Source: Candidatus Woesearchaeota archaeon (GTDB taxonomy: Archaea; Nanobdellota; Nanobdellia; Woesearchaeales; GW2011-AR9). Taken from it: a stretch of 36,374 nt of DNA. The stretch lies in contig JACOZP010000005.1 in the NCBI GenBank assembly GCA_016181265.1, forward strand, positions 1 through 36,374. Direction: 5' to 3'. Positions 2,562 to 13,305 of the stretch are shown here, piece after piece; positions within the stretch are counted from its first letter, which is position 1, and the number at the start of each line of letters is the position of its first letter. The notes beneath the pieces were generated by a model. It searched no databases. It was not told the origin of the DNA and saw only the letters and a program-made list of their open reading frames with translations. The position numbers were made by a program, and so were the translations under genes.

Positions 2562-5375
2562 TCAGTGAACCTTCGTCCCATCTTTGACATTCTTAACAAT
2601 AATCTTCTCCTTGCTTGTTCCTAGGCTTTTACTTTCAAAAACAATATTCTTGTTCTTGACAAGTAGTTCTATTTTTGCGAAGTCGTCAGAAGAGATGACG
2701 GCAGTATTCGCCGTCATGTTTTCTGGAACGACGGTCTCTCCGAGAGCTGACTTGGGCATCTCAAATAAAGTCGTCGTATTGTCATGATCGACACCGAGGA
2801 TCATCGCTTCAGATACTTTGCCACGAAATTTACTCGGCTTGAGATTAACACAGAAGACTAATTTCTTCTCCTGGAACGCAGTTGTGGAAAGGACTTTTTT
2901 AAGGCTGGTGATGACTTGCTTTATGCCTAATGGACCAAAATTAACGTTCAGCAGATAGAGGGAGTCAGCGTTAGGATGATCTTTGATCTCTTCAACGAGG
3001 CCGACGGCGAGATGAATGGGGAATTGATTTTCTGTAGGTAGATTTTTAGTATTTTCATCATTATTTAAAATCTTAAATTCTCCACCATTATATTTAGTGA
3101 TGAGTTCACATGTTCGTTGGAACGCTCTATTCATCTCTTCATCAGTTATTTTCGAATTTCCAAAAGCAATCAGCATGATTTCTTTAGAAGCAGGAGTAGT
3201 AATTGTCTGTTGGCACTGTTTTGAAAATCGACCAAGAACTTGATTATTATCGGCGTAGATGACTTCGCCGGCTTTCAATTTTTCTGTTGTTCCATCTAAC
3301 GCAGTAAATAATTCTCCTTCTGTTGATACACGAACAACAATTTTTCCATCGATCTTGGCGAGATCATGTGTGGCCATGGCAAGGCTACTTTCTACTGAGA
3401 GAGCATTATAGATATCAACAACAGTGTTAATTTGCGGTAATTTTCCTTTTTCTTTAATTAAAGAAAGAAGATTCTGGACAGCATTTGGATAGCGATTACT
3501 GTTGAGATCCATTTTCTGATTAATCTTACGATATTCCTCTAAGACTTCGTTTCGCCAGTAGTGGTCTGCATTTTTTTGTACTTCGCTTTTGAGTCTTTCT
3601 ATCCCTTCGTGTTTCTTCTTGATGGTCAATCCCGTTAATTGAGCAACCCTAACTTTAACACCAAATGGTTTAATATCTGGACTGATAGCGTACTGAAGAT
3701 CTTTCACTTCGCGGGTAGTCGCGAATTGTCTGATTTCCTCAATCTTTTCAACAAGAACATCTACTTTCCCCACTTTTCCTTTCCAGGTAAAAGAGATATC
3801 TTTCCAGAAGAGAGGTTTCTTCTCACCAAGAGCAGCGTAGACTTTCTGACTGAAAACAGGCAAGATCGGACTGACGGCAATAGCCAAATTACGGGCCAGA
3901 TTGACACAGAAACCAATTGCTTCTAACGTGCCAGTGGAATCTTTCGCTTTCCATGGCTCTGTTTTCTGAAAATAGGCATTGGCTTGATCGGCGATCTTCA
4001 ACAGATTCTTGACAGCTGATTTGAATTCACGGTTCTCGTAATTCTGTTTGATCTCCGCAAGCAATTCACTGACATGAATCTGTAAATCTGTTTCTTCAGC
4101 AATGACGGAGACTTTGCCGTAATTTTTTTCGGTGAAGATGAGTGTGCGATAACAGAAATTACCTAAGTTCCCCAGGAGGACATTATTGACAACCGCTTTT
4201 AATTCGTCGAAATGAAGATCGACGTCAACGACGCTTCGATCAAGATGACTAGCGTAATAAAAGCGCAGCGCCTCTGCTGAGTATAATTTGAGAAAATCTT
4301 TTGCTGTCAAAAAAGTGCCTCTGCTTTTGCTCATCTTCTCGCCATTGACCGTAATAAATCCATGGATATTAACACGTGGGAGAACGATCCCCATGTCCAT
4401 CAACATCGCCGGCCAGAAAAGAAGATGGAAATAGGCTATATCTTTGCCGATGAAATGGGTGATATGTCCTTTATACCAATATTCTTTCCAATCGAGCTGC
4501 TTTTTATCGCAATAATTTTTCGTTGAAGAGATGTAGCCGATCGGCGCATCGAGCCAAACGTAAAAATACTTTATTTCCCCGGTTTCTTCTTTTGAATTTG
4601 GAATTTCAAATCCAAAGTAAGGGGCGTCACGCGAGATACACCAATCTTCTAATCCTTTTTCGAACCAGCCCCGAAGCCAGTTGCGGACCTCGGGTTGCAG
4701 ATCCGCTTCTTTAGAAGCAAACCACTTCTGGAGCTGTTTTGTAAAAGCACTGAGCTTAAAGAAGTAATGTTCGCTATCTTTCAAGCGCGGCGTATTCTTA
4801 CAGATAGAGCAGTATGGTTCTAGTAAATCAACACTCTTTAAGACGCTACCACATTTCTCACAGACATCGCCGTATTGGTCAAGAGCATGACAATGCGGGC
4901 AGGTTCCTTTGACATACCGATCCGGAAGAGAACGCTGGCAGTGATCACAGTACATCACTTTGATCTTCTTACGATAGACGTGCCCTTTTTCTTGGAGAGT
5001 CTTGTAAAATAATTCGGCAAGCTCCCTATTTTCTGAGGAGTGAGTCTTGTAATAATTGTCAAATCGGATGAGAAAAGAAGTAAAGTCTTCTTGATGTTCT
5101 TTCCAATAGCGCTCGACAAAGATTTCTGGCTTCAGATTCGCTTTTTGCGCGTTGACTTCAATCGGCGTGCCGTGCATGTCTGACGCACAGATGTAGAGCG
5201 CATCGTTCCCGGTGAGCTTGAGAAAGCGAGAGTAGATATCTGCTTGGATATATTCCAAAAGGTGACCGATATGGATCGGACCATTAGCATAAGGAAGAGC
5301 AGCAGTAATTATGGTAGAAGAAGACTTGCTACTGATGGATCGGCTACTTTTGAGAGGAGCGGGATTTTTTTTCAT
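2562..5375 (-). CDS. metG: Methionyl-tRNA synthetase with extra B3/B4 domain and C-terminal EMAPII tRNA-binding domain
   Basis: MetRS charges tRNA-Met with methionine. The 937-aa chain has the HIGH motif at 35-38 (PIHIGHLL), knuckles of CxxC pairs at about 143-192 (CDHC, CPHC, CEKC, CSIC) that should bind zinc, and KMSKS at 347-351. The helical anticodon-binding domain runs to about 530. Residues about 560-770 (VVDIYNALSVESSLAMATHD, EVIYAD, GNSKITDEEMNRAF) match the B3/B4 domain known from the PheRS beta chain editing module and from stand-alone deacylase-like proteins. Residues about 785-905 are the EMAPII/Trbp111 OB fold (VGLVEEIKDHPNADSLYLLN, FRGKVSEAM). Archaeal MetRS is usually about 550-750 aa, so the B3/B4 insertion is the oddity. 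A TATA box at 5399-5408 supports the start. Confidence 0.95.
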   Translation of the reverse strand: MKKNPAPLKSSRSISSKSSSTIITAALPYANGPIHIGHLLEYIQADIYSRFLKLTGNDALYICASDMHGTPIEVNAQKANLKPEIFVERYWKEHQEDFTSFLIRFDNYYKTHSSENRELAELFYKTLQEKGHVYRKKIKVMYCDHCQRSLPDRYVKGTCPHCHALDQYGDVCEKCGSVLKSVDLLEPYCSICKNTPRLKDSEHYFFKLSAFTKQLQKWFASKEADLQPEVRNWLRGWFEKGLEDWCISRDAPYFGFEIPNSKEETGEIKYFYVWLDAPIGYISSTKNYCDKKQLDWKEYWYKGHITHFIGKDIAYFHLLFWPAMLMDMGIVLPRVNIHGFITVNGEKMSKSRGTFLTAKDFLKLYSAEALRFYYASHLDRSVVDVDLHFDELKAVVNNVLLGNLGNFCYRTLIFTEKNYGKVSVIAEETDLQIHVSELLAEIKQNYENREFKSAVKNLLKIADQANAYFQKTEPWKAKDSTGTLEAIGFCVNLARNLAIAVSPILPVFSQKVYAALGEKKPLFWKDISFTWKGKVGKVDVLVEKIEEIRQFATTREVKDLQYAISPDIKPFGVKVRVAQLTGLTIKKKHEGIERLKSEVQKNADHYWRNEVLEEYRKINQKMDLNSNRYPNAVQNLLSLIKEKGKLPQINTVVDIYNALSVESSLAMATHDLAKIDGKIVVRVSTEGELFTALDGTTEKLKAGEVIYADNNQVLGRFSKQCQQTITTPASKEIMLIAFGNSKITDEEMNRAFQRTCELITKYNGGEFKILNNDENTKNLPTENQFPIHLAVGLVEEIKDHPNADSLYLLNVNFGPLGIKQVITSLKKVLSTTAFQEKKLVFCVNLKPSKFRGKVSEAMILGVDHDNTTTLFEMPKSALGETVVPENMTANTAVISSDDFAKIELLVKNKNIVFESKSLGTSKEKIIVKNVKDGTKVH

Positions 5376-12804: not shown

Positions 12805-13305
12805 ATGGATCAATACGAAGAGAAACTGAAAAAGTTCATTCGTGAAAATAAGATTGAAGCAAAACATCTTAGCTTTAAACAATCCTGTCATTCCGTCGAA
12901 GAAGCGGCACGGGTGACAAATACCGACAGCGCTGATTTTGTGAAAAATATTTGTCTTATTGATACAGGCAATAATCTTATTGTTGCGATTGTTAAAGGGG
13001 AAGATCGAGTTAGTATAACAAATGTTGCGAAGGCACTGAATAGTGAAAAGATACGGATTGCGGAGCCGGAAGATATTCTACAAAGAACTGGTTATCCCTG
13101 CGGAGGAATTATTCTACAAAGAACTGGTTATCCCTGCGGAGGAATTCCTTCGTTTGGATATACTGCGATATTTTTGATAGATCCACAAGTGATGGAAAAG
13201 AAAGTCGTGTATAGTGGTGGCGGTTCGGAGAACTCACTGATCAAAATAGCAACAGAAGAATTACAGAGAGCGAATAATGGGAAGATTGTGAGAATAAGAA
13301 AATAG
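12805..13305 (+). CDS. YbaK/ProX-type aminoacyl-tRNA deacylase with a duplicated active-site segment
   Basis: The family (YbaK, ProXp, INS-like) hydrolyses mischarged aminoacyl-tRNAs, such as Cys-tRNA-Pro or Ala-tRNA-Pro. Family marks are CHSVEEAARV (about 29-38), FVKNICL, IVAIVKGEDRVS, and the conserved glycine loop TGYPCGGIPSFG. A 36-bp exact tandem repeat makes ILQRTGYPCGGI occur twice, immediately before the PSFG part of the loop, so 12 residues are inserted next to the substrate pocket and the length is 166 instead of about 155 aa. The frame is kept. A TATA-like TTTTAAATAGTATAAA (12772-12787) precedes the ATG. Whether the enzyme stays active is unknown. Confidence 0.85.
   Translation: MDQYEEKLKKFIRENKIEAKHLSFKQSCHSVEEAARVTNTDSADFVKNICLIDTGNNLIVAIVKGEDRVSITNVAKALNSEKIRIAEPEDILQRTGYPCGGIILQRTGYPCGGIPSFGYTAIFLIDPQVMEKKVVYSGGGSENSLIKIATEELQRANNGKIVRIRK
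13075..13146 (+). repeat. 36-bp perfect tandem duplication inside the YbaK gene
   Basis: Unit 1 is 13075-13110 and unit 2 is 13111-13146, identical at every base (beginning ATTCTACAAAGAACTGG and ending GCGGAGGAATT). The unit is a multiple of three, so the reading frame is kept. Complete identity points to a very recent event, a population variant or an assembly artefact. Confidence 0.9.

Follow-up and report, generated by a model that had tools for sequence, protein, structure and literature searches.

The window analysed here is a 36,374-nucleotide stretch of DNA from Candidatus Woesearchaeota archaeon, making up all of contig 6 of a 1.0 Mb genome, and it carries a long open reading frame (ORF) for a methionyl-tRNA synthetase (MetRS) with an additional B3/4 domain (Table 1). 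The initial annotation had placed the gene here without giving a strand; its existence was borne out by the ORF list and the domain search, and the gene is now assigned to the minus strand. NCBIfam analysis labelled the product as methionine--tRNA ligase (PRK00133, 707.9 bits against a cut-off of 587), and residues L27, Y29, W274, A277, P278, Y281, H317 and W321, assigned to the Met pocket through the equivalent positions of E. coli MetRS, are conserved in alignment A3. Y15 and W305 belong to the Met pocket of the E. coli enzyme (PMC5370406). The score above the curated cut-off, together with the retained pocket residues, identifies the protein as a MetRS, the sole one among the matches listed for this genome. 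Two frames adjoin it on the minus strand, one of 577 aa at 3-1733, truncated where the contig ends, and one of 288 aa at 1693-2559; neither gave a Pfam match at 1e-4. The gene for a YbaK-type deacylase, earlier pointed out as a second editing enzyme close by, is real, but it is a separate gene about 7.4 kb off on the opposite strand.

Table 1. Features of the MetRS fusion gene and of the YbaK-type gene in the window, and positions of the pocket signature.
Feature	Position	Strand	Details
MetRS-B3/4-OB fusion ORF	2562..5375	-	937 aa + stop, ATG start
MetRS class I catalytic domain, residues 22-412	4140..5312	-	Pfam tRNA-synt_1g 2.2e-144
Anticodon-binding domain, residues about 413-535	3771..4139	-	Pfam Anticodon_3 1.6e-8 over 426-526
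Linker, residues about 536-560	3696..3770	-	model confidence low at 548-556
Inserted B3/4 domain (Met-type), residues about 561-776	3048..3695	-	Pfam B3_4 7.9e-20; AF2; Foldseek
H670-D671, invariant pocket pair	3363..3368	-	41/41 MetRS-fused copies; Glu-Asp in ArgRS-fused domains
K719-Q720, signature position	3216..3221	-	Gln in 40/41 MetRS-fused copies
G739-N740, signature position	3156..3161	-	G 40/41, N 39/41 MetRS-fused copies
C-terminal tRNA-binding OB fold (Trbp111/EMAPII type), residues 789-937	2565..3011	-	Pfam tRNA_bind 2e-18 (789-876)
YbaK-type aminoacyl-tRNA editing protein	12805..13305	+	PF04073 5e-25

The Pfam domain order confirmed the position of the B3/4 segment between the anticodon-binding and OB (EMAPII-type) domains, and the domain search returned a highly significant B3_4 match at residues 625-762 (E=7.9e-20, 71.6 bits against a gathering cut-off of 29.3). 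This match is shorter than the true domain, since the full solo-type fold of ~220 residues is present at about 561-776, flanked by linkers of low model confidence, and the borders of 560-770 proposed in the initial annotation were thus right. An AlphaFold2 model of the isolated domain had a pLDDT of 88.5 and a pTM of 0.83, and Foldseek searches with it gave CtdA as the best match (PDB 9mkl, E 1.6e-16, TM 0.76 on the query and 0.85 on the target) and bacterial PheRS beta as the second. The score above the gathering cut-off and the Foldseek matches to both proteins place the domain in the B3/4 family (PF03483). Because the structural match spans the N-terminal part typical of solo proteins, a whole solo-type protein is contained in the MetRS. 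In the full-length model the domains were mostly well predicted, with low confidence in the linkers at 548-556 and 774-782 and a pTM of 0.60, which makes the placement of B3/4 relative to the catalytic site uncertain.

The nearest kin of the domain is the solo CtdA-like group. CtdA deacylates canavanyl-tRNAArg (PMC10018355) and is listed as a PheRS-related trans-editing family (PMC11415595). With the B3/4 segment as the query against the PDB, E. coli PheRS beta (8.8e-8, over a 70-residue core) came before CtdA (3.4e-5); with a profile built from 19 relatives of the domain, CtdA ranked first (4e-12). CtdA (PDB 9f7e, 9mkl) is thus the best profile and fold match across the whole domain, although it is a solo protein acting on tRNAArg, shares 17-18% identity, and has Glu-Asn where the alignment sets H670-D671. 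The B3/4 domain of bacterial PheRS beta, which acts on Tyr or meta-Tyr on tRNAPhe, is the same Pfam domain but forms part of a subunit of a class II synthetase, alongside B1, B5 and catalytic-like modules, and is less similar in fold than CtdA. The earlier description of the insert as an editing module of PheRS beta type therefore stands as to family, with PheRS beta moved to second place behind the CtdA-like proteins.

Comparison of 41 MetRS-fused domains from several phyla revealed that P122, N125, V128, D129, Y131, N132, H145 and D146 are invariant and that Q195, G214 and N215 are nearly so (domain numbering, in which residue n is MetRS residue n+525). The solo copies of the same Met-type branch, those of Bacillota included, share the H-D / Q / G-N set, and among the fusions found here the domains having this signature are joined to MetRS only. 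In domains fused to ArgRS, position 145 is Glu, position 195 Glu or Asp, and position 215 Val. Elsewhere, position 145 is Phe, Asp or Tyr in LysRS-fused domains, Ile or Val in ProRS-fused ones and Phe in extra PheRS copies; TyrRS-fused domains have His at 145 as in the Met-type, but Glu at the Gln position (195). The aligned E. coli PheRS beta is without the His, Gln and Asn of the Met-type. Position 145 may help to select the side chain. Set against PheRS B3/B4, the comparison named in the initial annotation, the pocket is retained, being invariant in the 41 copies, but with a Met-type signature of its own, unlike that of PheRS beta or CtdA. The domain is accordingly neither an editing domain of PheRS beta, its partner being MetRS and PheRS beta being encoded by a separate gene, nor a CtdA by pocket signature, the Met-type having His, Gln and Asn. 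At the sequence level, B3/4 is covalently joined to MetRS with its pocket conserved.

The OB fold that follows has a motif of its own, as K846, R851 and S855 keep the K-x4-R-x3-S triad; among 18 aligned MetRS, the R and S are present in 17/18 and the K in 12. This triad, shared with the OB fold of the Trbp111/Arc1p/MCP1 group, binds the CCA end in MCP1/Arc1p and is required there for Ala-tRNA deacylation (PMC12021450). The eukaryotic MCP1/Arc1p proteins have a GST domain and a lysine-rich linker, unlike the window MetRS. The enzyme may hold two deacylase-like domains, B3/4 and the OB fold.

The fusion is sporadic rather than universal among DPANN MetRS, occurring in 16 of the 353 genomes of the order (in one of the 16 as a contig-end fragment only), and in this respect the case made in the initial annotation was not undercut. 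Within the genus of the window, G002 has the fusion, with 80% identity, and G001 is without B3/4, its MetRS core being 75% identical with a short linker in the place of the domain. An assembly artefact as the source of the fusion was ruled out by the same in-frame architecture in G002, G022, G040, G044 and others. The fused MetRS of G007 (L004) misses a stretch around the HIGH motif, reflecting either an assembly error or an inactive enzyme. The fusion is not confined to DPANN: the same arrangement was found on named contigs of Diapherotrites, Aenigmatarchaeota, Bathyarchaeota and a CPR bacterium, Shapirobacterium. The C-terminal end varies, the OB fold following B3/4 in some copies and those of Diapherotrites and others ending with B3/4, and the B3/4 tail is borne by two deeply different MetRS cores, archaeal/E. 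coli-type (PRK00133-like) and bacterial-type (PRK12267-like). In a tree of 160 B3/4 domains, MetRS-fused copies cluster together with certain solo copies, and the fused label requires three changes, as against six on the MetRS core tree. A single fusion inherited vertically was therefore rejected; the domain must have been exchanged, lost, or both. Absence from most relatives implies that the domain is dispensable in general.

The same family was found on other synthetases. Class I LysRS carries B3/4 at the C-terminus in G027, G422 and an Anaerolineae contig and at the N-terminus in G343 and G195 (loci L033/L113, L104, L105, L194 and L210), and class II LysRS carries it in G098 and G236 (L098, L109); the two unrelated LysRS classes have thus both acquired the domain, the class I enzyme at either end. 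N-terminal B3/4 domains occur on ProRS in three genomes (L101, L102, L106), on TrpRS in six genomes of one family (L108, L289-L293), with weak B3/4 scores, and on TyrRS in Chloroflexi (L233, L259). C-terminal ones occur on ArgRS in Bacillota (L237, L242) and, as an extra copy, on PheRS beta in four genomes (L097, L099, L100, L103). An AlaX-like protein joined to B3/4 was found in Bacillota (G593, L247), and a 556-aa Streptomyces frame (L193:2817-4484) has B3/4 close to the C-terminal end, and no synthetase was recognised in its other parts. One family of the order, f40, has B3/4 on ProRS, TrpRS and MetRS as well as the extra C-terminal copy on PheRS beta. In the LysRS-I, LysRS-II, ProRS, TrpRS, TyrRS, ArgRS and PheRS beta fusions, B3/4 is terminal rather than placed ahead of an OB fold as in the window MetRS, and the pocket signatures differ; most of these domains occupy separate branches of the domain tree.

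The partner of a fused domain and the neighbours of solo copies both bear on the substrate. CtdA acts on tRNAArg, and the ArgRS-fused domains of Bacillota carry a CtdA-like pocket, so that in the single case of a known substrate the fusion partner gives the tRNA; by the same logic, Met-type domains would act on tRNAMet. In the archaeon G285 (L111), a solo Met-type frame overlaps an ordinary 720-aa MetRS frame (metG) on the same strand, a locus that is a split version of the fusion. Among Bacillota solo Met-type loci (22 genomes), nine have metY and four a cysK-like gene, so that 12 have at least one of the two and 10 have neither. The metY assignment is supported by TIGR01326 above its cut-off in L178 and L234; metY encodes O-acetylhomoserine sulfhydrylase, which makes homocysteine. 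Loci of B3/4 types other than this one, taken from the same family, had neither gene (0/17), and the difference between 12/22 and 0/17 gives a Fisher p of about 7e-4, uncorrected for relatedness. A gamma-glutamylcysteine ligase-like gene lies downstream in two Bacillota solo Met-type loci, Rrf2-type regulators are close to two of the Bacillota genes, and an archaeal solo copy in G307 has a MetE-like gene nearby; for the solo Met-type genes of Chloroflexi, of Myxococcales and of most archaea, the neighbours gave no clue. The genome of the window itself encodes S-adenosylhomocysteine hydrolase and gave no match to a MetE-like gene, such genes being present in 29 genomes of the order. A co-occurrence of the Met-type domain with homocysteine metabolism across the order was rejected, because S-adenosylhomocysteine hydrolase was not enriched with the domain (12 of at most 19 genomes vs 196/338). 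This genome also encodes two solo B3/4 proteins of other types (G000:C14:164906-165304, L031, and G000:C3:10265-10693, L062); a fourth B3_4 match, in a 902 aa frame of contig C22 that reads like a repetitive surface-type protein, was discounted as due to chance.

The amino acid classically misactivated by MetRS is homocysteine (PMC5370406), and its editing by MetRS has been placed in the catalytic site, pre-transfer and without an editing domain (PMC7373986); a list of seven synthetase families with editing domains does not contain MetRS (PMC11295145). The window MetRS retains the Met-pocket residues and is likely to face the same error as an ordinary MetRS, but it additionally carries B3/4. 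None of the papers searched, a set without subscription journals and preprints, reports a MetRS bearing B3/4. What is new is the synthetase that carries this otherwise known deacylase fold, along with a pocket signature of its own.

We consider it moderately probable that B3/4, a predicted deacylase, serves in post-transfer proofreading of tRNAMet, with homocysteine or a related analogue as its most likely target. The architecture, the fold, the invariant pocket with its signature, the recurrence on unrelated MetRS cores and the links of solo copies to metG, metY and cysK are observed; catalysis, the hand-over of the tRNA end and the identity of the amino acid are the parts of this explanation that we infer. 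MetRS would charge tRNAMet, of which a small fraction would carry homocysteine or another analogue that escapes pre-transfer editing. The mischarged tRNAMet would leave the synthetic site while being held by the anticodon domain and the OB fold, and its 3' end would reach the pocket of B3/4, where the ester would be hydrolysed; flexible linkers would join B3/4 to the anticodon-binding domain on one side and to the CCA-binding OB fold on the other. This would provide a post-transfer editing step missing from described MetRS. Homocysteine is favoured by the metY/cysK loci, by its classic misactivation, and by a genome that encodes S-adenosylhomocysteine hydrolase with the MetE-like match absent. 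Several points stand against the proposal. Ordinary MetRS removes homocysteine as a thiolactone in the synthetic site, so that the need for a second editing step is not obvious, and the link to sulphur genes comes from the Bacillota solo copies rather than from the fused ones, with 10 of those 22 loci having neither gene. The lack of enrichment of S-adenosylhomocysteine hydrolase, the absence of the domain from most relatives and the uncertain placement of the domains in the model also weigh against it.

Both editing and a tRNA-binding extension had been offered in the initial annotation, and the former is favoured here, on the grounds that CtdA, whose deacylase activity is proven, matches the fold better than PheRS and that the predicted pocket is invariant in 41 fused copies. 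Retention of an inactive B3/4 as a tRNA-binding or structural extension would agree with the sporadic and dispensable nature of the fusion and with other domains appended to MetRS that bind tRNA, such as the OB fold; but tRNA binding alone does not predict pocket residues that are invariant across phyla and equal in fused and solo forms, and we regard this possibility as improbable. The same low probability is given to cross-editing by tRNA, in which B3/4 would remove methionine from non-Met tRNAs mischarged by MetRS. The fusion partner is again MetRS, and mischarging of other tRNAs by MetRS is known from several organisms, among them the archaeon Aeropyrum pernix, where it affects tRNALeu (PMC11415595), but metY/cysK beside the solo copies fit a sulphur amino acid better than methionine on a wrong tRNA.

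Those neighbours would also suit a broader clearance of thiols, in which the Met-type domain would rid several tRNAs of homocysteine (or cysteine) and the fusion would merely concentrate it on MetRS, where most errors arise. The cysK-like and gamma-glutamylcysteine ligase neighbours in addition to metY point this way, as does the misactivation of homocysteine by IleRS, LeuRS, ValRS and class II LysRS (PMC5370406); restriction of the fused Met-type signature to MetRS and the solo copy overlapping metG argue otherwise, leaving this reading unlikely, if marginally less so than the preceding two. Highly improbable is a stand-in for a lost PheRS editing domain, with the MetRS-borne B3/4 clearing Tyr-tRNAPhe. 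B3/4 is the PheRS editing module, and PheRS beta of G000 and G002 was absent among the matches listed in the PF03483 search, but PheRS beta is present in 7/7 genomes checked, as frames of 527-571 aa, on which ground replacement was rejected, and the Met-type pocket is unlike that of PheRS.

Proofreading of tRNAMet by the fused domain can be set in a wider frame, which we advance tentatively as a possibility: B3/4 may be a portable proofreading module found on at least eight synthetase types, whose Met-type branch would be a homocysteinyl-tRNAMet deacylase and the first domain of MetRS dedicated to post-transfer editing, fused in archaea and solo, with links to metY/cysK, in bacteria. If post-transfer proofreading by the fusion is true, MetRS joins the list of synthetases with editing domains, and MetRS-B3/4 is a protein for testing whether homocysteine has to be cleared after transfer. 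The fusions also hint that the substrate can be read from the partner, with the Glu-type pocket going with ArgRS and the His/Gln/Asn-type with MetRS, which makes many genes labelled merely 'B3/4 domain protein' testable.
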